Counted from the stretch's first letter, positions 1,023-24,129 are shown. The stretch is 33,803 nucleotides of DNA from a virus (IMGVR_UViG_3300007734_000602:1-33803); one strand, 5' to 3'. Made by a program: numbers and translations. The notes: a model not told the origin generated them from the sequence alone.

Positions 1023-1057
1023 ATCTCTCCCAATACTTCCGCAATTGCTTCTACGGT

Positions 1058-1128
1058 TTCAGGTGTCTAGGTATTACCCCGCTCCGAAACGCCCGTCTCC
1101 GTTGATCCTAGACGGGCATTTTAGTAAC
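1058..1128 (-). repeat. Repeated intergenic element, copy A
   Basis: On the minus strand the copy starts with GTTACTAAAA-TGCCCGTCTA, continues through GGATCAACGG-AGA, and ends with TAGACACCTGAAA. There are exactly 59 bases from the G of GTTAC to the T of TAGACACC, as in copies B-E. In this copy GCCCGTCT and AGACGGGC form an 8-bp hairpin. It begins 1 base after the stop of the upstream gene and lies about 36 bases before the next start codon. Confidence 0.8.
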
Positions 1129-1129
1129 A

Positions 1130-1657
1130 CTAGACCGATTCAGCCGCCTCTGCGTCCAGCTGAGCGTCTGACTTAACGGCGCCGATCATAGCAGTTGGAG
1201 CCTCCTGGTACCTCTCCATGATCAGTGTCAACGTCCGATCCAAGACTTCCAGCCATGGCTCGCGGTGCAGCATGAGCGGGTACCGTGAGCCAATTGCATC
1301 TTGCGCAAGGTAGATGTTCCCTCGCGTAGCCAGTAGCGCGCGTGCGATCTCTACTGGTCGCGGGTCTCCAGCTCTCGCCCTGCACCGTTGCAGCCTTTGA
1401 ATCGCGGCGCGCATTGGATACCGATAGCGCGTGGAGATCGTTGTTTGCTTTGTCGCCTGCTCTGCCTGGGTCCCTTCGTTGACGTATGACTCATCCCGCT
1501 CCGCCACCGTCGCAAATGCGGCGTGATCTATAAAGCCGCTGAACTCTTTAGTCCAGGCTGGATTGCCACCGTCATCCATCTCCTTTGCCCGATGCATTGC
1601 CAGCGGTAGATCGTCAATGTGATTCATAAACCAGACAATCTTGCTTGATAGGTTCAC
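1130..1657 (-). CDS. Hypothetical protein
   Basis: A 175-residue protein of unknown function, mostly charged and probably helical; no motif recognised. Start GTG 1657 overlaps the TGA of the preceding gene (GTGA) and follows GGGGAGG, whereas the longer ATG start at 1693 would overlap the neighbour by 40 bases. The gene ends immediately before copy A of the repeated element. It forms a two-gene unit with the gene at 1654-2214 behind copy B. Confidence 0.65.
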   Translation of the reverse strand: MNLSSKIVWFMNHIDDLPLAMHRAKEMDDGGNPAWTKEFSGFIDHAAFATVAERDESYVNEGTQAEQATKQTTISTRYRYPMRAAIQRLQRCRARAGDPRPVEIARALLATRGNIYLAQDAIGSRYPLMLHREPWLEVLDRTLTLIMERYQEAPTAMIGAVKSDAQLDAEAAESV

Positions 1658-2214
1658 GCGATAATCCTCCCCGCTACCGTGGGTCTGACACATGGCGCTC
1701 GCAGTGCCATGCCACTAATTTCACGAGCAGCTTCGTCTATGGCTGCCACCTCTTCACACCGCTCGCACTTGCTTACCCAGTCATAATCCAGGTCATTGTC
1801 AGGATGCCGAATCCAATCTCCCATGATATGCCCTTGCAGCTTCACAGAGATCTCTGCGACAGATAGCTGCGCGAGCTTGCGCCAATCTCCGTCATACCGT
1901 TCCACCTTCCAGAATGATTCCACCCTGGGCTTCATCGGCTGCACCGTTTTCTTCGTATCTCGCTTTACTTGACGCAGCGTCACGGTGCGCCATGCATCTT
2001 CTGGCGGATCGCCGTAGACCTGGACAATCCGCACCTCAATATCCTCTGGCACGCGGCGCTCCTGTGCCATAAACGCCAGTAACGATCGCTTGCTGATTCC
2101 GATGGACGCAGCCATGGCTTCCGCCTGTGCGCCGCGCTCTCCCAGCTCTGCGGGAAAGTGCGTGTCAGCTAGTTTGCGTAAGTACTCTCCTGTGAGCGAA
2201 GAAATCTTTAGCAT
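1654..2214 (-). CDS. Hypothetical protein with possible N-terminal HTH
   Basis: A 186-residue protein. The segment around residues 35-65 (ISKRSLLAFMAQERRVPEDIEVRIV) reads like a XRE/YdaS-type helix-turn-helix in which a short protein helps choose transcription targets; I place this at low certainty. The rest is unrecognised and contains CERC near the C-terminus. Start ATG 2214 has GGAGGT directly upstream; the GTG four codons earlier lies in the ribosome site. It is the first gene after copy B of the repeated element and is translationally coupled (GTGA) to the next gene. Confidence 0.55.
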   Translation of the reverse strand: MLKISSLTGEYLRKLADTHFPAELGERGAQAEAMAASIGISKRSLLAFMAQERRVPEDIEVRIVQVYGDPPEDAWRTVTLRQVKRDTKKTVQPMKPRVESFWKVERYDGDWRKLAQLSVAEISVKLQGHIMGDWIRHPDNDLDYDWVSKCERCEEVAAIDEAAREISGMALRAPCVRPTVAGRIIA

Positions 2215-2227
2215 CCTACCTCCCACT

Positions 2228-2311
2228 TTCAGGTGTCTACATACTCAGCCACTTGTTTGCGTGCCTCTCCGTTGATCCTACGGGGTCATTTTCGTAACAC
2301 AACTGGCAAAA
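2228..2311 (-). repeat. Repeated intergenic element, copy B
   Basis: Minus-strand order: TTTTGCCAGTTGT, GTTACGAAAA, TGACCCCGTA, GGATCAACGG-AGAGGC, variable middle, TAGACACCTGAAA. The 59-base distance between the conserved ends matches the other copies. CCGT/ACGG can pair around AGGATCA. The box lies directly upstream of the ribosome site of the gene starting at 2214. Confidence 0.8.
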
Positions 2312-2312
2312 C

Positions 2313-2798
2313 CTAAGGAATCACCTCCACTTTGACTTTTAGCACTCCTCGCGACAATGGCGTGTCTGGTCCAGCAACTGCCTTCCAAGCCTCTGGCGAC
2401 AAGTCAACCAGCTTCTCATTCTTACCCTCGCGGCATTGGCACCAGTCAACAACCCATGCAACGATGGAACGACCGTTTGCAAGGTTAGTGACAATAATCC
2501 GATACGGAGGCTTGCCCCATTTGAAGTCGCATTTCTTGCCGCAGAGACCTCGCAGTTTCGGTCCCGCAGCTGCGTAAAACTTATAGCCCTCGCGCACATA
2601 CCAGGTTGATGCCCCTCCCCGCTCAGCGTCAAACCATGTCGCCTTACCAACCACCGACTGCATCCCGATCATCTCAAGTTCAAGTGCGGTCGGTTCGGGC
2701 TTGAAGGAATCTCGCATCTCTAACTGCGGCTTGCCCATGAACAGGGACATAGCTAGTCCCAGTGCCAAGGTGAGCAGGATAAGAGCTACGCGGCGCAT
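2313..2798 (-). CDS. Secreted or membrane-anchored RlpA-like double-psi beta-barrel protein
   Basis: A 161-residue protein. Residues 1-21 are a basic start plus hydrophobic stretch (signal peptide or anchor). From about residue 50 the chain resembles RlpA-like DPBB domains: GKATWFDA, a Cys-rich middle, PYRIIVTNLANGRSIVAWVVDWC, then the typical ending DLSPEAWKAV and LSRGVLKVKVEV. Such domains bind or cleave peptidoglycan or act in the wall. Location in the early or accessory block, not in the lysis cassette, is unusual. Start ATG 2798 overlaps the preceding stop as TAATG with GGGAG upstream. Confidence 0.65.
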   Translation of the reverse strand: MRRVALILLTLALGLAMSLFMGKPQLEMRDSFKPEPTALELEMIGMQSVVGKATWFDAERGGASTWYVREGYKFYAAAGPKLRGLCGKKCDFKWGKPPYRIIVTNLANGRSIVAWVVDWCQCREGKNEKLVDLSPEAWKAVAGPDTPLSRGVLKVKVEVIP

Positions 2799-3010
2799 TA
2801 CTGCTCCCTGGTCTCCACGCGCGCCGATATGATTGCTCGCTCAATGTCTGCGAGTCCAGCAACAATCTTGATTGCTGCGGTCACGCCATCCATGTATCCA
2901 AGTGAATAGTCGGTGTCGCCCAGGATCTTCGCCACCTCCTGACGATGGTTGATGAGTTTGAGCACTCGCATCTCCACCGAATCAACGTCTCTTTGTTTAG
3001 GCTTCGGCAT
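2798..3010 (-). CDS. Small hypothetical protein
   Basis: A 70-residue probably helical protein (LINHRQEVAKILG... YMDGVTAAIKIVAGLADIERAI). No family recognised. Start ATG 3010 overlaps the last codons of the methyltransferase-like gene and follows AAGGAG; the longer frame to 3037 has no such site. Its TAA overlaps the next ATG. Confidence 0.6.
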   Translation of the reverse strand: MPKPKQRDVDSVEMRVLKLINHRQEVAKILGDTDYSLGYMDGVTAAIKIVAGLADIERAIISARVETREQ

Positions 3011-3650
3011 CGTCAATCTCCTTCCAGCTTGGGGCATCGTCTGGTTTCTGCCACACGGTCACATGCGATTCTAGTAGTGGCATGATCCCTGCGCTGCTCA
3101 AGACGCGAAAAACCTCTTGTCCCTTACCGCGCGTGCGTTCAAAGCAATCGTCAACTGCGATCAAGCATCCTCCTGGAATGACGTCCCATGCCAAAGCTAG
3201 CTCTTTGCGATGGTGGATCGGTGAGTTCATGCTGCCATCCCAGTCGTAAGAATCTAGATATAGAAAATCGGCTGCGTGCAGGGTCTGCACCTTTGGCAAA
3301 AGCTCAAGCGAGTCTCCGCACATGGCATAAGCGTTTGGCGCAAGCTCCATTGCCTTCTCGCACGCCTTCGGGTCCAGATCAATACACGTTAGAGATCCGC
3401 CGTGCTCAGCGATTAACCAGTCCCAGATGATTGTGCTTTGCCCATCTCCAGCCCAGTTCCCAGGCTGACGTACGCAACCAGTTTCAACAATCACCAGTGG
3501 GCGATTCTTACTTGCAAGGAATTCGGTAATGAGGATAAACGCATCTCTACGGATGTTCCGACTATCAAACCATTGCCCGAACTTCATTTCAAACTTGCTC
3601 TTTGAATCAAACAGTGGCACAGTCCCATTAAAGCTAACCCTGATTCCCAC
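2997..3650 (-). CDS. Class I SAM-dependent methyltransferase-like protein
   Basis: A 217-residue protein. VETGCVRQPGNW (motif I position) followed by a conserved acidic CIDLDP about 40 residues later gives the SAM-binding half of a Rossmann methyltransferase. LYLDSYDWDG and PGGCLIAVDDC match the later strands of the Methyltransf_24 group. The target (small molecule, protein or sugar) is unknown; there is no DNA methylase signature. Start GTG 3650 is preceded by a G-rich ribosome site (GAAGGGGGG); the longer frame to 3704 overlaps the upstream gene by 70 bases. Confidence 0.6.
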   Translation of the reverse strand: MGIRVSFNGTVPLFDSKSKFEMKFGQWFDSRNIRRDAFILITEFLASKNRPLVIVETGCVRQPGNWAGDGQSTIIWDWLIAEHGGSLTCIDLDPKACEKAMELAPNAYAMCGDSLELLPKVQTLHAADFLYLDSYDWDGSMNSPIHHRKELALAWDVIPGGCLIAVDDCFERTRGKGQEVFRVLSSAGIMPLLESHVTVWQKPDDAPSWKEIDDAEA

Positions 3651-4032
3651 TGTCGCCCCCCTTCGTGAAGTGCGCAACAAACTCATCCAACGACATGATG
3701 ACAATGCTTCGGCGCCGCGTTCCAGGTCCAGGGCTGTCGCCCATGACCAGTATGCGGATCTGATCGCCCTTCGCTGGCACCTGGGTCAGCCAATTCCACA
3801 GTCGCTCTGGGAAACTCTTGCCCACTTTTGTCTGCGCGACGATGGTTCCGTCACCAGACTGCACATCAATCTTCGTTCCGAATTGACCCACGCGCATTCC
3901 GTTCAGCGCAGCTGCGACTTCCCTTTCATAAGAATTGCCCCTTTGTCTGGACCGCTTCCCGCGAATGCGGCGCGCGGTCATGGCTGGGTCATCATTCGCA
4001 GCTTGGATCTGCTGGTCTTTGAAGTAGCCCAT
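3634..4032 (-). CDS. PD-(D/E)XK nuclease, Holliday-junction-resolvase-like
   Basis: A 132-residue protein. RGNSYEREVAAAL gives the helix with the first Glu, followed by GTKIDVQ (Asp) and VAQTKVGK (Q-x-K), the order seen in small PD-(D/E)XK resolvase-like nucleases. This would cut branched recombination or replication intermediates before packaging. Start ATG 4032 overlaps the upstream TAA (TAATG). The longer frame to 4146 lies inside that gene and is rejected. No other resolvase is visible in the window, which supports this role. Confidence 0.55.
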   Translation of the reverse strand: MGYFKDQQIQAANDDPAMTARRIRGKRSRQRGNSYEREVAAALNGMRVGQFGTKIDVQSGDGTIVAQTKVGKSFPERLWNWLTQVPAKGDQIRILVMGDSPGPGTRRRSIVIMSLDEFVAHFTKGGDSGNQG

Positions 4033-4235
4033 TAGTTTCGTCCGTACTTCTGCGCAAGGTAAAGATCCATTTGCTCCAGGCATGGATTGCAGTGAACTGA
4101 CTCGCGGTATTGATCGCGCGTCAGCTTCGCGTCGCATTCGGCGCATCGGAATCCGCGTGACCGCACGCGCTTCTTCTTTGGCTTGCCAAGCATCTCGTTG
4201 AGCATGGCATCTAGCGGATTGTTTGCGTTACGCAT
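4032..4235 (-). CDS. Small zinc-finger-like protein
   Basis: A 67-residue protein with a Lys/Arg-rich segment (KPKKKRVRSRG) followed by CAEC at about residues 31-34 and CNPC at about 49-52, so one four-Cys zinc site. It may bind nucleic acid or a partner protein. Start ATG 4235 overlaps the 3' end of the SprT-like gene by 8 bases. Confidence 0.6.
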   Translation of the reverse strand: MRNANNPLDAMLNEMLGKPKKKRVRSRGFRCAECDAKLTRDQYRESVHCNPCLEQMDLYLAQKYGRN

Positions 4236-4866
4236 TTGCTGCCTCCATTCTTTCCTGGCGTCGGACTTCTTTGAACTCGTGGTACTTGCGGACCGCTTTG
4301 GCGGCTTGAACTGCCTGGCGAGGATGGTAGTCCCACTCTTGCAACCTGGCGTCGGTTGCGTCTTCCGCGTTTAGAAACTTTGCGTACATCTTGAAGGCAA
4401 TGACATGGAATTCAAAGTCGTGAGTGTGAGTGCATGCGCCGCCGCGCGCGCATCCTCCTGGGCAGTAAGCGTCGCGAATGATGTGCGCCATTTCGTGAAG
4501 CAGTACCTTCCTGGTTCTATCAAGTAGCTCTGGAGTTCCATTCTCCTTGGCTCGCAGATCGCGACCCCATTTTCTCCCGATGCCGACATTGATTTGATGG
4601 CGGAACCCGTATGCATGTCCGCCGTAGTTCGGTACCAGGTTGATCATTAACCCATTTAGTTGCTCGCCCCAGGCGCTTCGCAGAATCGGCTTGACGAATT
4701 CTGCAACCAGTTTGCGATCTGTTGTAGATCCGCCCTTGATCTTGATGGTGCGTGTGCCGCGAAGAGCTTTGACCAGGTACACGATTACCGAAGCGAATGG
4801 GTATCGCTTGGCGTTGACGCGGATTTCGTTTTTGTTGAGACCCTTTCGGCTCTGTCGCTTTGCCAT
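4228..4866 (-). CDS. SprT-like zinc metallopeptidase
   Basis: A 212-residue protein with HEMAH at residues 124-128 and HDFEFH around 149-154 for the third ligand. CPGGCARGGAC lies between them and could bind a second zinc or a disulfide. SprT/WLM-type proteases act on DNA-bound or cytosolic proteins. I chose ATG 4866, which has GGAGG upstream; the open frame continues to a TTG at 4944, but that TTG is the -35 box of promoter P1, so the longer start would precede the transcript. It is the first gene of the P1 transcript. Confidence 0.65.
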   Translation of the reverse strand: MAKRQSRKGLNKNEIRVNAKRYPFASVIVYLVKALRGTRTIKIKGGSTTDRKLVAEFVKPILRSAWGEQLNGLMINLVPNYGGHAYGFRHQINVGIGRKWGRDLRAKENGTPELLDRTRKVLLHEMAHIIRDAYCPGGCARGGACTHTHDFEFHVIAFKMYAKFLNAEDATDARLQEWDYHPRQAVQAAKAVRKYHEFKEVRRQERMEAANA

Positions 4867-4886
4867 TTCCTGGACCTCCATTTTCG

Positions 4887-4905
4887 GGAGAGCTGTCTTC
4901 TCTCC
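4887..4905 (-). promoter_or_regulatory. 5' leader hairpin with AAGACAG loop (P1 mRNA)
   Basis: Minus-strand RNA: GGAGAG-AAGACAG-CTCTCC, a 6-bp stem with a 7-base loop at about the first bases of the predicted P1 transcript, 9 bases before the GGAGG of the first gene. The P2 leader has the same loop with a different stem. Confidence 0.6.
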
Positions 4906-4909
4906 TCTG

Positions 4910-4944
4910 GTACAAGTGTACAACATGGCGTTCAAGTCTGTCAA
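4910..4944 (-). promoter_or_regulatory. Promoter P1 with GTAC-N4-GTAC operator
   Basis: Minus strand: TTGACA (4944-4939), 18-base spacer, TACACT (4920-4915). Upstream, the 20-base block TCAAAATAGGGGCTTGACAG also occurs at P3. A palindrome GTAC-ACTT-GTAC (4921-4910) covers the -10 box. It sits in the 102-base gap before the SprT-like gene. Confidence 0.7.
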
Positions 4945-4968
4945 GCCCCTATTTTGAGCACGATTTTT

Positions 4969-5160
4969 CTACTTGCCCCAGCAGTTGCGATGCCACCAGG
5001 TCCATCGGTCCCTAAACCTGGTCTCTTGATAGCTTCGTGACAAAACGCGCAGAGAATCTTTTTGCGCGGCAATTTCTTTGGCGCAGTGTGCGCAATTACG
5101 CATCACCCAAATCACTGTGCCTTTATTCTCCGCAGTCTTCGCAGGCTTCTTTGTAGCCAT
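4969..5160 (-). CDS. Small Cys/His-rich protein
   Basis: A 63-residue protein. After a Lys-rich start there is CAHC, and near the C-terminus WWHRNCW, which could complete a zinc site. Function unknown. Start ATG 5160 has GGGAG upstream; a start at 5172 is also possible. It overlaps the end of the preceding gene by 38 bases and is the last gene before promoter P1. Confidence 0.5.
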   Translation of the reverse strand: MATKKPAKTAENKGTVIWVMRNCAHCAKEIAAQKDSLRVLSRSYQETRFRDRWTWWHRNCWGK

Positions 5161-5368
5161 CTTCACTCCCATTCACTGCGCTCATCAATTTGTGCGCTGC
5201 AACATGCACCGCATCTTCTACCGTCACACCCTGATAAGCAATCTCTTGCCCGTCAGAATCTACCAGGATTACCGCTGTTCCGTGTTCGGTCTTTGTGACT
5301 CCATCAAATTTGTAGCCGATGTTTTCCGCGAGGAAGTTAAGCGTCTTGAAGTCTTCTTCTCTACTCAT
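5123..5368 (-). CDS. Hypothetical protein
   Basis: An 81-residue acidic protein. Residues 20-45 look like a small beta sheet (FDGVTKTEHGTAVILVDSDGQEIAYQG) and the C-terminus ends CEDCGE. No family recognised. Start ATG 5368 follows the LexA-like gene with GGAG upstream. Confidence 0.6.
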   Translation of the reverse strand: MSREEDFKTLNFLAENIGYKFDGVTKTEHGTAVILVDSDGQEIAYQGVTVEDAVHVAAHKLMSAVNGSEDGYKEACEDCGE

Positions 5369-5370
5369 GA

Positions 5371-5568
5371 TCACTCCAGCACGCGAATGCTTCGCGCAGT
5401 TCGGTCTGACTTCGCAATCTTTCCGTCGCTTGCAAGCGCCATAAGTTCTCGCTGAACAGTTCCGTGCGACATGTCTAGTCGCGCGACTAGCTCTCTAATC
5501 GTTGGCGCGTAGCCTTTCTCTCGCACAAAGTTTCTTATCTCGCTGATAAGTTCCTGCTGTCTTGTCAT
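5371..5568 (-). CDS. Stand-alone LexA-type winged-helix DNA-binding protein
   Basis: A 65-residue protein that matches the N-terminal DNA-binding domain of LexA almost from end to end: RQQELISEIRNFV (helix 1), KGYAPTIRELVARL (helix 2), SHGTVQRELMALASDG (recognition helix), then the wing. The self-cleaving peptidase domain is missing, so it cannot be inactivated in the normal SOS way. It probably represses or activates phage promoters; the GTAC-N4-GTAC operators at P1-P3 are candidates. Start ATG 5568 overlaps the upstream TGA (ATGA) and follows AGGAGG. Confidence 0.75.
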   Translation of the reverse strand: MTRQQELISEIRNFVREKGYAPTIRELVARLDMSHGTVQRELMALASDGKIAKSDRTARSIRVLE

Positions 5569-6131
5569 AGCTCATCTCCTCCTGTCATCCACTCATGCAG
5601 TCTGTGAAATGTCTGCGTTGCATCTAGATGCGTTGCGTCCAGCGATAGATCAAACCGAACCTTGTTCCACTCTTGTTCGGTGACATCATTCACCCCGCCA
5701 AGACCTCCAGCCACTCGCCACATTCGCTTATTGATATCGGCGTTCAACTGCACGATCTTAATTCCGCTGCTCATCTTGCGAAGGTAGTCCACCTCGCGAA
5801 TGAGACGAAGATCGTCAACGACTACTGCCCGTCCCATCATCTTCGCGCCCTCGTACTTTTCGCGCCAAAGCCCAAGCCAGAAGTCTTCGTCAACGTCTCG
5901 CATTGCCGCTCCGATCCACTGTAGAAGCTCGCGCCCCGTGGCAATCCAAAGCTTGCCGTTGCGCTGCACATCAAACAAGCTTCCCTTCTGCAAGCCTGGG
6001 TACCTACGCAGCGCGATCTCTTTAACCGCGTCCGCAATCCCAATGCGTACATAGCCACGATGCTCAACAAGATTCATTGCGAGCGTTGTTTTCCCAGACC
6101 CTTGCGGTCCAATGATGGCAATGTCATGCAT
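5565..6131 (-). CDS. P-loop deoxynucleoside monophosphate kinase-like protein
   Basis: A 188-residue P-loop protein. GPQGSGKT at residues 8-15 is Walker A, and VVVDDLR is the Walker B/LID-side acidic motif. The pattern resembles phage dNMP kinases and dephospho-CoA-kinase-like folds, which charge dNMPs for replication. Start ATG 6131 follows GGAGG; the frame to 6155 is rejected. It is the first gene after copy C of the repeated element, and its stop overlaps the LexA-like gene. Confidence 0.65.
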   Translation of the reverse strand: MHDIAIIGPQGSGKTTLAMNLVEHRGYVRIGIADAVKEIALRRYPGLQKGSLFDVQRNGKLWIATGRELLQWIGAAMRDVDEDFWLGLWREKYEGAKMMGRAVVVDDLRLIREVDYLRKMSSGIKIVQLNADINKRMWRVAGGLGGVNDVTEQEWNKVRFDLSLDATHLDATQTFHRLHEWMTGGDEL

Positions 6132-6162
6132 TACATTTCCTCCAATCGCTCGCAAACTTTAA

Positions 6163-6240
6163 GGTGTCTAGACATTGGGCGCCACCGTTTCGGCGCTCTC
6201 CGTCGTTCCTACGGGGTCAATTTCTGACGTCAACCCCCAA
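6163..6240 (-). repeat. Repeated intergenic element, copy C (inside a gene 3' end)
   Basis: Minus strand: TTTTGGGGGTTGA, degenerate CGTCAGAAAT in place of GTTAC-AAAAA, TGACCCCGTA, GGAACGACGG-AGAG, variable middle, TAGACACCTTAAA. The 59-base distance holds. Unlike the others, it is read as codons: it supplies the last roughly 20 residues and the TAG stop of the gene at 6168-6770. Confidence 0.75.
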
Positions 6241-6770
6241 AAAGCCCGAATCGCAGTCTCATCCATAAATTGTCGGACTGGCATCAAACGAGCTGCGTGG
6301 AGCCTAAGCCGAACGCCATGTCCATAGTCATGCGGTTCAGCCTCGCGCATGAATCTGGCACGGGAACAGACGCCGCCAACGCGGAACACTCCGTCCACTG
6401 GATGGCGTCGGTCACCCAGCATCTGAACCAGGATCGCCGCTTGAGACTTGAACGCAGCTGCGTCATCAAAGATCAGCTGCTCTAGCGTTGACGTCTTGGC
6501 ATCCCAGGTCAGACCGAAAGCACTGAAGTCAGCGCCGCTGTCACCAGCCTGACCGATCTCCCAGTTCAAGACCTCGTAGCCAAGTCCAAGCGCCTGTACA
6601 GCCGCCATCTCTCCCAGCCTTCCCATCAAGTCCACAGCCTCTGAGCTGCTGTGTCTGTCATACCACTTATCCGTGACCAAATGTTCCGCCTTAAATGCCT
6701 GCTTTGCCGCAGTCCAGTCCAATGCTTTCTTCACCGACTCTGCCGTCAACGGTACATCAACCCAGTTCAT
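6168..6770 (-). CDS. PD-(D/E)XK nuclease-like protein
   Basis: A 200-residue protein. GRLGEMAAVQAL (E54) followed by GDSGADFSAFGLTWDAKTS (D81, D90-x-K92) is a clear PD-(D/E)XK active-site order. The role could be restriction-type, repair or host-DNA degradation. The C-terminal tail (roughly the last 20 residues, to VAPNV) is encoded by copy C of the repeated intergenic element and is probably not part of the fold. Start ATG 6770 overlaps the upstream stop (ATGA). Confidence 0.6.
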   Translation of the reverse strand: MNWVDVPLTAESVKKALDWTAAKQAFKAEHLVTDKWYDRHSSSEAVDLMGRLGEMAAVQALGLGYEVLNWEIGQAGDSGADFSAFGLTWDAKTSTLEQLIFDDAAAFKSQAAILVQMLGDRRHPVDGVFRVGGVCSRARFMREAEPHDYGHGVRLRLHAARLMPVRQFMDETAIRAFWGLTSEIDPVGTTESAETVAPNV

Positions 6771-7249
6771 TTGATCCCTCGCCTTAAGATACTTCCAACA
6801 AGCTCTGGCTTTATATAAGTATTAAGTCTCTTGTCTCTTGTCTCATGTCTCTTGTCTCTTGTCTCTTGTCTCCCGCCGTGACCTGGCGTGACATTTGCCG
6901 TGACAGATCCGTTACCAAAACGCTCTGTTTGCGTGACAGACCGCTCCCGATGCCGCTGCTGTCGGAGGGTAGCCGTCGGATCAATCTGGAACTTTGCCCA
7001 GTTATCTACGACGATCCGACCAGACTCCTCCCTAATCAGCCCAGAGCTGAACAGCGTCTTTAGGTGCCGATGCAGCCGCTGCGGGATAAGTGCCTTCAGA
7101 TGCTGCACCGACGCAAAGCCGCCCTGTGGCTTCTGCCTCTTCGCCATTACCCAGATGGTCATGACCAGGCGGAACTCTGAATCGTTGAGCACCGCGATTC
7201 GCGGGTCTTCCAGAAAGTCTGTAAAGAGCTTTAGATACTGTCCGCGCAT
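6767..7249 (-). CDS. Winged-helix replication initiator-like protein
   Basis: A 160-residue protein. Residues 1-100 look like the N-terminal winged helix of phage replisome organisers (GQYLKLFTDFLEDPRIAVLNDSEFRLVMTIWVMA, then HLKALIPQRLHRHLKTLFSSGLI). A basic Thr/Arg linker follows and a repetitive ETRDKR tail is encoded by the heptamer array. It lacks a helicase-loader or primase domain. Start ATG 7249 follows GGAGG. It lies behind copy D and beside the recombination genes, as replication initiators do in many phages. Confidence 0.55.
   Translation of the reverse strand: MRGQYLKLFTDFLEDPRIAVLNDSEFRLVMTIWVMAKRQKPQGGFASVQHLKALIPQRLHRHLKTLFSSGLIREESGRIVVDNWAKFQIDPTATLRQQRHRERSVTQTERFGNGSVTANVTPGHGGRQETRDKRHETRDKRLNTYIKPELVGSILRRGIK
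6811..6874 (-). repeat. Heptamer array next to AT-rich segment: candidate replication origin
   Basis: Seven tandem 7-base units occupy 6826-6874 (plus-strand unit GTCTCTT; five exact, the third GTCTCAT, the seventh GTCTCCC). A 15-base AT-only-but-one stretch (6811-6825) abuts the array. Direct repeats beside an AT-rich stretch inside the replication gene resemble iteron origins such as lambda ori in gene O. A simple coding repeat is the alternative. Confidence 0.5.
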
Positions 7250-7281
7250 GTCGCCTCCACTTTCTCTAATCACCTTCCAAG

Positions 7282-7366
7282 TTTCAGGTGTCTACATACC
7301 CGAAACAATTTTCTCAAGCCTCTGCGTTGCGCGTAGACGGGCTTTTTTGTAACACAACTCCCAAAT
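7282..7366 (-). repeat. Repeated intergenic element, copy D
   Basis: Minus strand: ATTTGGGAGTTGT, GTTACAAAAA, AGCCCGTCTA, CGCGCAACGC-AGAGGC, variable middle, TAGACACCTGAAA, with 59 bases between the conserved ends. It lies between the annealing-protein gene and the replication gene, about 34 bases before the start codon at 7249. Confidence 0.8.
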
Positions 7367-7371
7367 GGGGC

Positions 7372-7404
7372 GTTGACGGTAGGGAAGACAGCCCTACCGT
7401 CAAC
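7372..7404. terminator. 13-bp hairpin, loop AAGACAG on the plus strand
   Basis: GTTGACGGTAGGG and CCCTACCGTCAAC pair perfectly around a 7-base loop. It follows the stop codon of the annealing-protein gene by 4 bases, so it may end or protect that mRNA, but no U-run follows on either strand. On the plus strand its loop is AAGACAG, the same as in the two promoter leaders. Confidence 0.5.
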
Positions 7405-7408
7405 TGAA

Positions 7409-8137
7409 TCAAAACGGCAGATCCTCCAAAGTGTCTTCTGGGATCAGCCGCGTCGGTGCAGGAGCAGCAGCAGTAGCTGGACGAATCGGATTCTCCTTCG
7501 TCCACGAGAGTGCAGGCTTCTCATTGCAATAGCCAGAGCTGTCTTTGATGCCGCATGTGTAGAAGGCTGCATAAGGTTTACCCGCCTTACTGACCCCTGA
7601 CTCGCGCACCTTCCAGGCGGTGCCATGCACTGGACACGCCCCGCCGTTCCCGCCACTAAGTGAAGAGATCATGCTGCGCACCGCATCTGGATTCGCGAAG
7701 TCCGCAGCAATGTCATCAATCCGACGCTCCATCGGAATCGGTCCATCCGACTGTACGATTGGCGCGCTGATTCTCTCTGGCGAGTACAGGTCGCGAGCTA
7801 CGCCCATCTGCACCGCAGCGCGGCGCAAGGCATCTGAGGCTGCTGACTTCAAAGCTTCTGGATCACGGTCACTGTTTGGATATCCATAATCGGAATGCGT
7901 CACCATCTTGTCTACGATCTGTGCAGTAATCTCGCCCTTCACAACCGATTTGGATAGATCCGCGATATCCACTTTGAATGACCAGCCGCCAATGCCTAGC
8001 ACGCTGGTGAGGCGCTCCGCCACTGCGCGCGAATCAACATAGGTGAACACCATGCCACCTGGTCCCTGGCGCTTTTTGAGTTGGCTTTCCGCAAACGGTG
8101 CCGCTAGCTCTCGCGCAATCTGATTCTCGTCTTTCAT
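7409..8137 (-). CDS. Rad52/Sak-like single-strand annealing protein
   Basis: A 242-residue protein. Residues 8-120 match the Rad52-22/Sak group (LAAPFAESQLKKR, FTYVDSRAVAERL, GWSFKV, then KSAASDALRRAAVQMGV). A second module at 168-204 has C168, H171, C195 and C204, a probable zinc ribbon. The last residues, LEDLPF, look like the acidic tip of SSB proteins, which recruits repair enzymes. With the YqaJ exonuclease next to it, this makes a Red-like recombination pair. Start ATG 8137 follows GGAGG, behind copy E. Confidence 0.75.
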   Translation of the reverse strand: MKDENQIARELAAPFAESQLKKRQGPGGMVFTYVDSRAVAERLTSVLGIGGWSFKVDIADLSKSVVKGEITAQIVDKMVTHSDYGYPNSDRDPEALKSAASDALRRAAVQMGVARDLYSPERISAPIVQSDGPIPMERRIDDIAADFANPDAVRSMISSLSGGNGGACPVHGTAWKVRESGVSKAGKPYAAFYTCGIKDSSGYCNEKPALSWTKENPIRPATAAAPAPTRLIPEDTLEDLPF

Positions 8138-8172
8138 GCAACCTCCAAACTTTCTTCAAGTGCCTGTGAAGA

Positions 8173-8256
8173 TTCAGGTGTCCAAGTATCTGGACTTACT
8201 TTTGCGAGCCTCTCCGTCGTTCCTAGACGGGCATTTTTGTAACTCTTCTCCCAAAA
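8173..8256 (-). repeat. Repeated intergenic element, copy E
   Basis: Minus strand: CTTTTGGGAGAAGA, GTTACAAAAA, TGCCCGTCTA, GGAACGACGG-AGAGGC, variable middle, TGGACACCTGAA, with 59 bases between the ends. TGGAC replaces TAGAC, and GTCCA just before it can pair with it (loop GATACT). It lies between the exonuclease and annealing-protein genes. Confidence 0.8.
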
Positions 8257-10081: not shown

Positions 10082-10108
10082 GCCCCGCCTGGATTTTCCA
10101 GGCGGGGC
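10082..10108. terminator. Intergenic 11-bp hairpin
   Basis: GCCCCGCCTGG and CCAGGCGGGGC pair with a 5-base loop, 8 bases after the stop of the first P2 gene. There is no U-run on the minus strand, so a leaky terminator or an mRNA 3'-end stabiliser is more likely than full termination. Confidence 0.5.
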
Positions 10109-10116
10109 TGCTTGTT

Positions 10117-10429: not shown

Positions 10430-10448
10430 GACCAGCTGTCTTCTGGTC
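10430..10448 (-). promoter_or_regulatory. 5' leader hairpin with AAGACAG loop (P2 mRNA)
   Basis: Minus-strand RNA: GACCAG-AAGACAG-CTGGTC, 6-bp stem, at about the 5' end of the P2 transcript and 5-6 bases before AGGAGG. Same loop and closing AG/CT as the P1 leader, other stem bases changed with pairing kept. An overlapping alternative hairpin (GTCTC/GAGAC) sits just upstream. Confidence 0.6.
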
Positions 10449-10457
10449 TCTAGGGAG

Positions 10458-10487
10458 ACTGTACAGGCGTACCGCCTGGGCTGTCAA
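10458..10487 (-). promoter_or_regulatory. Promoter P2 with GTAC-N4-GTAC operator
   Basis: Minus strand: TTTAGGGG upstream, TTGACA (10487-10482), 18-base spacer, TACAGT (10463-10458). The palindrome GTAC-GCCT-GTAC (10472-10461) covers the -10 box. It drives the early operon starting with the gene at 10410. Confidence 0.7.
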
Positions 10488-10570: not shown

Positions 10571-10599
10571 TTGACAGATCTCTGGTACGGGCGTACCTT
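10571..10599 (+). promoter_or_regulatory. Promoter P3 (plus strand) with GTAC-N4-GTAC operator
   Basis: TTGACA (10571-10576), 17-base spacer, TACCTT (10594-10599), with GTAC-GGGC-GTAC (10585-10596) over the -10 box. It carries the same upstream 20-base block as P1. It points away from every annotated gene, toward the hairpin at 10637-10677 and the antisense strand of the CxxC and phosphoesterase genes. Confidence 0.6.
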
Positions 10600-10636
10600 A
10601 CTAGCATCGGGGAAGCTGCGCAGAAATAGAAATGGC

Positions 10637-22568: not shown

Positions 22569-23042
22569 GCTTACTCCTTACCTTTGCCGCAGACGCCTGC
22601 GCTTGTGACTCTACCTTCTGAAAGTGCAGACCACGAATGATCCAGTCTGCGTTCGGTGCGTGCTCCAGTTCCCACGGGGCAATGTGCCAACGTCTTGCTA
22701 ACGCGTCCAACGCGTAATCAAGCGGAACGGTGACTGGCTTTCCGTCCCCTAGTCCAGCTGCTGCAAGGCTTCTGGCGAGCCGTTGGCGTTCACTTTTGGG
22801 AGTGCCGTTTCCGTTTGCTCAGCAGCCCATGCCTTCAGCAGTCCAAGCGCCGTCTGCACGTCGCAGTTGTCCAGGAAGTCATCGGCGCTCTTTCCGAACG
22901 GATGCTCTACGGCTGAAGCCGCAAGAATCTCTAGAAGCTTCGCCTCGTCAATCTCCCCGCGCTGAATAGAAATAAATTGGCGAGCAGACATTGATTTCAT
23001 GACAAATACCTGATCGCCAATCGTTACGTCAAATGTGCGCAT
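22561..23042 (-). CDS. Frameshifted tail assembly chaperone, long form (GT-like)
   Basis: By a -1 slip at CCCAAAA (22800-22794), translation from ATG 23042 leaves frame after residue 83, bypasses the TAG at 22749-22751 and reads 77 more codons to TGA 22563-22561, a 160-residue product. The extension includes PVTVPLDYALDALARRWHIAP and WELEHAPNADWIIRGLHFQ, typical of T domains that bind the tape measure. This frame has no convincing start of its own. The C-terminal end overlaps the tape-measure start. Confidence 0.8.
22749..23042 (-). CDS. Tail assembly chaperone, short form (G-like)
   Basis: A 97-residue protein (MRTFDVTIGDQVFVMKSMSARQF ...) between tail tube and tape measure, the standard position of the G product. 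It keeps the tape measure soluble and guides tail tube polymerisation. Start ATG 23042 has AGGAGG upstream. Only part of translation shifts to make the long form. Confidence 0.75.
   Translation of the reverse strand: MRTFDVTIGDQVFVMKSMSARQFISIQRGEIDEAKLLEILAASAVEHPFGKSADDFLDNCDVQTALGLLKAWAAEQTETALPKVNANGSPEALQQLD
22794..22800 (-). promoter_or_regulatory. -1 ribosomal frameshift slippery site CCCAAAA
   Basis: Minus-strand C-CCA-AAA fits X-XXY-YYZ in the zero frame of the short form. After slipping, CCC-AAA leads into a 77-codon open -1 frame. A short hairpin (GGCT/AGCC) follows by about 10 bases and may help. Confidence 0.75.
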
Positions 23043-23063
23043 ATAGCCTCCTTTGCCGTTTTT

Positions 23064-23130
23064 GTTACTAAAACGCCCGTCTATGCGACACCAGGAGACG
23101 CGTTTCCACGTCCCCTGGTGTCTAGATACC
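23064..23130 (-). promoter_or_regulatory. Rearranged copy F with 16-bp GAAA-capped hairpin
   Basis: On the minus strand the box TATCTAGACACC runs straight into a hairpin (23122-23087): GACACCAGG, G, GACGTG, loop GAAA, CGCGTC, T, CCTGGTGTC. As minus-strand RNA, two G-U wobbles make the 16-bp stem continuous; on plus they would be mismatches. The conserved 5' block (GTTACTAAAACGCCCGTCTA) is present but inverted. It lies between tail tube and chaperone genes, and may partly terminate or protect the abundant tail-tube mRNA. Confidence 0.65.
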
Positions 23131-23139
23131 CTAAAAGAA

Positions 23140-24129
23140 TCAGCTGATTGTCGCTGAGTTATTCTTCACAACAACGCTGAACGGAACGGTTGTAACCGAC
23201 CCATCAACGAATGGGCGAAGCGTGATCTCCTGGGCGACGTTTCCATCAACCTCTGTCTGCGTGATCTCATCAATCACACCGAAGAAGTCAACCGTCATCT
23301 CGTAGTTACCAGCGCCAAGCGTCGGACCAGTGGTGACGATGCGGACGCGTCGGAGGCTCTTATCCTCCCAGGCATCCAGCTCATTGTCATTCTGGAAGTG
23401 GCGCGTCAGCGTGAGCACAGCATCGGTCTTTGCGACACGATTCAGGGCTGCGCCAACAGAGCTTCCGTCAAGACCAAAGCGCGTGGTGAAGCCATTGGTC
23501 AGCGCGAGCGCAGCAACAGCGACGTTTGCATCTGCCGTGGTCCCAATTGCGTTTGCGGTGCCGTCAATGTAAACCGTGGTGTTCACGCCAACTGCGTGCT
23601 TCTCAACGGTGTCTGACGGGCTTGCGCTAAGCGCGGTTCCCTGGGTCATTCCCTTGAACGAGACCAGCCCAGCTTCAAACGTAACGACGTCATCCTTTGC
23701 CCAGGTAATCGTCAGCGTGTCCACCTTGTTACCAGGGACGCGGAACGATGCTGGAATGTTTGCCCCGCCATCCGACCATGCGTATTCAAGAGAGAATGAT
23801 CGCGTAAGGTCAGCGGTTGAAGCGGCGTTGAACGTCCAGGTGTATGGAGCAGCTGTGCCGCTCGCGGCTGCGGAGCCAATGCCTGCGTTCAGCCAGAAGA
23901 CTGACTGATCAAATGCAAGCGGTCCGCTAATGCTGAACGCATTGGTCTCAATGCCTTCGTATACTGCGCGCGACTGATTGTATGTTCCATCCAGGTAGTC
24001 TGGGCGGATTGATGCAATCGTGCGCTCGTGCGTAATCTCTGTACCGTAGAGCTTGCGCGTGGCGTTTGCGAAGGTTCCCGCCGTGCTCTCAAGCGCACCC
24101 TGAACCTTCTGAAGCACTCGTGTAGCCAT
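23140..24129 (-). CDS. Major tail (tube) protein
   Basis: A 329-residue protein. The long beta-rich chain, position before the frameshifted chaperone, and lines such as RVLQKVQGALESTAGTF and YEMTVDFFGVIDE match large siphovirus tube proteins. Start ATG 24129 follows GGAG. A strong hairpin follows the stop codon. Confidence 0.8.
   Translation of the reverse strand: MATRVLQKVQGALESTAGTFANATRKLYGTEITHERTIASIRPDYLDGTYNQSRAVYEGIETNAFSISGPLAFDQSVFWLNAGIGSAAASGTAAPYTWTFNAASTADLTRSFSLEYAWSDGGANIPASFRVPGNKVDTLTITWAKDDVVTFEAGLVSFKGMTQGTALSASPSDTVEKHAVGVNTTVYIDGTANAIGTTADANVAVAALALTNGFTTRFGLDGSSVGAALNRVAKTDAVLTLTRHFQNDNELDAWEDKSLRRVRIVTTGPTLGAGNYEMTVDFFGVIDEITQTEVDGNVAQEITLRPFVDGSVTTVPFSVVVKNNSATIS

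Follow-up and report, generated by a model that had tools for sequence, protein, structure and literature searches.

Copies of the element and their genomic context

The virus record IMGVR_UViG_3300007734_000602, analyzed here over its whole length of 33.8 kb (the window), carries terminase, portal, protease, capsid, tail tube, and tape-measure genes, with which the RecE, Erf, DnaD-like, and deoxynucleoside monophosphate (dNMP) kinase genes share one strand. Dispersed among these genes is a non-coding unit of approximately 77 bases, which we refer to as the element. An earlier note on this DNA had described five intergenic copies, in one orientation, before genes; we recovered all five (A to E) on the minus strand, each where it had been placed, and detected a sixth, F, that the note did not list. 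Copy F lies after the tail tube gene, in the orientation opposite to the genes.

A 77-column ungapped alignment of copies A to E (minus-strand sequence, anchored on the 3' box) was made, and all sites are given as 77-column ungapped units (Table 1). The sequence profile, which was built from seven kinds of copies and so partly from sequences like those scored, reached 66 to 92 bits at A to E and 52 bits at F; shuffled windows (n = 20) reached at best -1.4. Copies A to E, and a further class, G, which occurs before RecE in relatives and is absent from the window, each directly precede a gene and lie on that gene's strand. Copy C overlaps the 3' end of an open reading frame (ORF) at 6168 to 6770 in the window. 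This ORF runs through the element (6156 to 6232) to a TAG within the box; several relatives have a stop codon already at the element start.

Table 1. Coordinates of element copies, their parts, and associated features in the window
Feature	Position	Strand	Remarks
Copy A	1055..1131	-	Upstream of ORF 615-1022; profile 83.9 bits
Copy B	2225..2301	-	Upstream of ORF 1654-2214; profile 91.8 bits
Copy C	6156..6232	-	Upstream of dNMP kinase gene 5565-6140; profile 66.5 bits
Copy D	7280..7356	-	Upstream of DnaD-like gene 6767-7252; profile 89.6 bits
Copy E	8170..8246	-	Upstream of Erf-like gene 7409-8137; profile 90.4 bits
Copy F	23061..23137	+	Between tail tube gene 23140-24129 and ORF 22749-23042; profile 52.4 bits
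3' box of A	1057..1073	-	Dyad half TAGACACC
3' box of B	2227..2243	-	
3' box of C	6158..6174	-	
3' box of D	7282..7298	-	
3' box of E	8172..8188	-	
Box of F	23119..23135	+	Halves GGTGTCT and AGATACC; TAtcTAGACACC on opposite strand
Terminator-like hairpin and T-run, opposite strand of A	1098..1126	+	Consensus scan, shuffle test
Terminator-like hairpin and T-run, opposite strand of B	2267..2295	+	Consensus scan, shuffle test
Terminator-like hairpin and T-run, opposite strand of D	7321..7347	+	Consensus scan; shuffle test unsupportive
Terminator-like hairpin and T-run, opposite strand of E	8213..8241	+	Consensus scan, shuffle test
Predicted 3' end of element terminator		+	GGGCATTTT
63-aa CxxC...HxxC protein	4969..5160	-	Only on element-bearing contigs
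Sigma-70 promoter TTGACA-18-TACAGT	10458..10487	-	Heads early operon
Sigma-70 promoter TTGACA-18-TACACT	4915..4944	-	Second promoter

Two conserved ends at one distance

Conservation is concentrated in a 5' block (columns 1 to 45, gTGTTACnAAAAtGnCC...TAGGAnCAACGGAGAGGCncGnnAA) and a 3' box (columns 58 to 75, TATnTAGACACCTGAAA), with 12 to 13 free bases between them. Identity among the window paralogs is 75% in the 5' block and 82% in the box and falls to 37% in the middle, which bears out the earlier description of a fixed length with a free middle. On the minus strand, GTTAC and GACACC are 61 bases apart four times in the window (A, B, D, and E), and six other distances between these motifs occur once each. 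The 61 bases equal 59 bases to the T of TAGACACC, the distance that had been claimed for all five copies. Read strictly, GTTAC to TAGACACC is found only in A, B, and D, because C has CGTCA where the others have GTTAC, with an unchanged register, and the box of E reads TGGACACC; the claim holds for the register of all five copies and fails as worded for C and E. Downstream of the box, aGGCAATTgnnGAAA follows at a constant distance in A, C, D, E, and G. It is absent from B, the box of which abuts the Shine-Dalgarno sequence and is only about 10 bases from the start codon; any transcript from B would therefore have to start in or above the box.

We identified 32 distinct versions of the element in the window and its IMG/VR relatives, falling into seven positional classes (A to E, F, and G). 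The distance from 5' block to box was identical in 32 of 32 versions, and with the blocks scored separately the best box lay at offset 0. A two-ended pattern with a gap left free from 36 to 60 matched twelve IMG/VR stretches, all with one gap, and a second free-gap scan likewise gave one gap throughout. With a third pattern, anchored on AAAAnGCCCGTCT, relatives of this phage showed one gap, and unrelated contigs matched at other gaps. The spacing is thus kept in every version found in related phage contigs, where the earlier note had proposed to look for it. There was no DNA match to the element in the phages collection or in named phages, and bacterial genomes gave ten chance matches only, with varying gaps.

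A palindromic box and an opposite-strand hairpin

At the DNA level, the 3' box forms an imperfect dyad of 16 bp, with halves AGGTRTnT and AGACACCT (p = 0.009, column permutations preserving conservation). In F, the stronger dyad half is the other one, and for this reason it is the opposite strand of F that bears TAtcTAGACACC. Fixed length with free sequence had been taken to suggest either a structure or a two-ended binding site. The significant box dyad makes the binding site the better half of that suggestion. The structural half fares less well: no sense-strand RNA fold is common to the copies, each class folding differently, and Rfam 15 gave 0 matches at gathering score across the whole window. 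A further possible dyad, centred within the 5' block four turns (42 bp) away from the box dyad, was rejected (p = 0.18 with column conservation preserved), as was a micro-ORF in the same block (ATG-CCC-GTC-TAG), the ATG of which is not conserved.

The opposite strand of the 5' block forms a hairpin followed by a T-run, and a consensus terminator scan lists it in A, B, D, and E. In a shuffle test, the opposite-strand hairpin reached p ≤ 0.05 in A, in B, in the majority of E versions, and in a single G version; C was borderline, and the combined p over classes was 0.001. In the traced copies, the mispairs in the sense-strand arms are A.C, equivalent to G.U on the opposite strand, which suggests that it is there that pairing matters. 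The idea that this hairpin may stop antisense transcription is supported for most copies and less so for D and F, which fail the shuffle test. A separate, strong terminator-like hairpin (10082 to 10114, plus strand) is directed against the early operon between its first two genes.

Empty junctions in related phages

Several junctions occupied by the element have element-free counterparts in other phages. In two relatives (L010 and L011) the G element lies between a zinc-ribbon gene and RecE; in the window and in three others (L012, L017, and L134) these genes overlap or abut without it. At the A and B junctions, the orthologous genes of phages with a 75% identical terminase abut or have only a short leader between them; at the D junction these phages retain a hairpin at the same place and lack the element. 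The F junction is short and element-free in four phages with an 82 to 83% identical tail tube protein. From that group, the near-complete and largely colinear genome G023 contains no copy, and no other multi-copy intergenic repeat of this kind was found in G023, G001, or G002. Divergent terminase relatives (75% and 57%) were searched for a version of their own; none was found, nor did they show a different multi-copy repeat of this sort between genes. Since relatives have tight or hairpin-only junctions at these places, the element is best seen as a lineage-specific insertion, made in both orientations, and not as an ancestral promoter.

Most simply, this lineage would have gained the element, which then reached several junctions, one of them in reverse orientation; loss elsewhere is a less simple account. 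The element had been described as "not a decayed repeat," which is right, and the empty sites add that it spread as a unit. It is a lineage-specific addition in a group of freshwater phages, with six or seven copies each, most of them before early genes.

Promoters in the surrounding region

No sigma-70 -35/-10 pair was found at a common position in the copies on either strand. TAGACA was considered as a -10 or -35 hexamer and rejected, since the hexamers are inconsistent across classes. Good sigma-70 promoters are present elsewhere in the genome (Table 1), including a further one on the plus strand from 10571, so that the copies lie inside a region with ordinary promoters. Several of these recur in relatives, and most are followed by a leader hairpin with the loop AAGACAG. 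Such leader hairpins (10440 to 10487 and 4890 to 4944 on the minus strand; 10571 to 10620 on the plus strand) also occur in the 75%-terminase relatives, and a hairpin before copy D has the loop CTGTCTT, the reverse complement of AAGACAG. The gene before D ends in a strong terminator-like hairpin with covarying arms (TTGACGGTAGGG/CCCTACCGTCAA; GGCGCCAGGG/CCCTGGCGCC; GGTGCCAGGG/CCCTGGCACC), which makes a start of its own plausible for the gene after D.

Comparison with known phage systems

The start-associated sequences (SAS) of cluster K mycobacteriophages had been put forward as the nearest known idea. Extended SAS (ESAS) are 46 to 47 bp long, combine SigA hexamers with an inverted repeat, and are linked to the 13-bp SAS, which lies close to the start codon (PMC3203893, PMC11373665). 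Like them, the element occurs in one phage group as several intergenic copies before non-structural genes on one strand, spans tens of bases, and has an inverted repeat; unlike them, it has two unlike ends that are exactly spaced and a predicted opposite-strand terminator. In place of the 17-bp imperfect inverted repeats with a short spacer, it has a single 16-bp dyad at its 3' end. The comparison fails on sequence, as the SAS (GGGATAGGAGCCC) has 0 matches in the window at ≤2 mismatches and no common position within the element scores on either strand for SigA-like -35/-10 hexamers at 17 to 18 bp, a promoter that the ESAS has (PMC11373665).

Among named phages, phiC31 represents the nearest terminase group. 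Its genome contains about 15 copies of the conserved inverted repeat (CIR) palindrome and about nine of an early-gene box (GGGTTGCCGACTCCCTTAC) as separate units. The many intergenic copies are a likeness; the sequences differ, and the two motifs are separate there, whereas here a single distance ties the dyad to the 5' block. The core of the CIR palindrome (CCTACTCACGTGAGTAGG) gives 0 matches in the window at ≤3 mismatches. In phiC31 (L117, 34777 to 34860), several CIR palindromes lie inside G+C-rich hairpins, one of them with a T-run behind it, and in that phage, too, an operator may double as a terminator.

Cluster A stoperators are asymmetric 13-mers, monomer-bound and working in one orientation with transcription (PMC9283540). 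They share with the element the arrangement of many short intergenic sites across the genome and differ from it in that the dyad here sits within a 77-base unit. A 13-mer that we take to be the L5 stoperator consensus (GGTGGMTGTCAAG) matched the window once, versus 1.5 matches expected by chance. Activator-dependent phage promoters of the P2/P4 Ogr-Delta type would explain two conserved sites, a constant distance, a free middle, and the lack of a -35; this likeness is one of description, and unlike in that system no activator was identified here. The element would work like the ESAS, the stoperators, and the phiC31 motifs but belongs to none of them.

Proposed role of the element and alternatives

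We consider the element to be real and tentatively propose, with confidence a little short of even, that it is a dispersed operator/promoter cassette for a phage regulator with a built-in opposite-strand terminator. Its most likely use would be on/off switching of early genes via a DNA-binding protein. The 3' box would be a palindromic site for a dimeric protein, encoded or recruited by the phage, and would mark the region in which early transcripts begin, immediately ahead of the Shine-Dalgarno sequence. The 5' block would stop opposing transcription and probably give the bound complex another point of contact, which would account for the constant distance. Initial opening of the early operon may fall to the ordinary sigma-70 promoters at about 10.46 kb and 4.92 kb, after which the copies could strengthen or gate the expression of Erf, the DnaD-like gene, the dNMP kinase gene, and two further genes. 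Copy F can be accommodated as one that carries a terminator after the tail tube gene. A more far-reaching version, that the palindromic operator/promoter locked to its terminator spreads as a unit in both orientations and that each insertion creates an insulated switch under one regulator, strikes us as doubtful.

Several observations weigh against this proposal. The copies share no sigma-70 signal, conservation along the element has no 10.5-bp helical periodicity, and in D and F the opposite-strand hairpin does poorly, failing the stricter shuffle test. Copy F runs against the genes, which argues against a simple promoter; the RecE copy of L010 and L011 is missing in the window; and relatives live without any copy, which makes the element dispensable. 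Neither a repressor nor a sigma factor or activator was identified. The 63-aa CxxC...HxxC protein (Table 1) is a weak candidate for a trans factor: its IMG/VR relatives (n = 9) are all on element-bearing contigs, a distribution for which shared ancestry accounts equally and which several other genes share.

The main rival to the cassette is that the copies are repressor operators of the CIR or stoperator type. A phage repressor on the dyad would then silence initiation or block elongation at many intergenic sites, with no promoter involved, as at the stoperators of L5 and the CIR of phiC31. The dyad itself, the position of copies within an operon that already has sigma-70 promoters, their presence in early and late regions in both orientations, and the palindrome copies of phiC31 are all in keeping with such a network. 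We nevertheless regard it as somewhat unlikely, as an operator by itself needs no 37-base 5' block at a constant distance, and a Pfam search yielded no integrase or repressor. A 65-aa winged-helix protein related to the LexA DNA-binding domain (5371 to 5568, minus strand) is present also in element-free relatives, which counts against it as the repressor.

An alternative hypothesis is that the element is a self-spreading intergenic repeat, similar to miniature inverted-repeat transposable elements or repetitive extragenic palindromes, that is tolerated in gaps and has no function for the phage. The A, B, F, and G junctions that are cleanly empty in relatives, the two orientations, and the lack of the element in all other phages searched are what such a repeat would leave behind. 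That the middles of paralogs are near-random, yet the ends and exact length have been kept over a long time, makes this unlikely; no target duplication or transposase was seen, and no copy in this set lies in a gene body, only one ORF 3' end being overlapped (copy C).

An RNA leader acting in early mRNA through antitermination, processing, or translation control is quite improbable. It would suit the single orientation before five genes and the conservation down to the Shine-Dalgarno sequence in A, C, D, E, and G, but the copies have no common fold and no Rfam match, the mispairs fall on the sense strand, and F is antisense to the genes. Least probable is a constant-length short RNA from the opposite strand, starting near the box and ending at the T-run, since a fixed box-to-terminator distance and hairpins that favor that strand are offset by the absence of a sigma-70 promoter on it and by a sequence too variable for a conserved RNA.

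If the element acts as a switch, a phage lineage could rewire the control of its early genes in a single step, through insertion of ready-made switches at closely packed gene junctions. Close relatives that naturally have a given junction with and without the element allow a direct comparison of the effect of each insertion on transcription. For phages that infect uncultured freshwater bacteria, the regulator, if found, would represent a multi-site control of a new type.

Two minor features of the region were also recorded. In three relatives (L010, 7642 to 8673; L011, 3030 to 4277; L012, 5998 to 6751), a small divergent operon of Cys-rich proteins lies behind an opposite-facing promoter; the window keeps this promoter (10571, plus strand), and its Cys-rich genes seem to be missing. 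A TTGTCTC tandem repeat of about 6 units (6829 to 6872) lies inside ORF 6767 to 7273, the DnaD-like gene.

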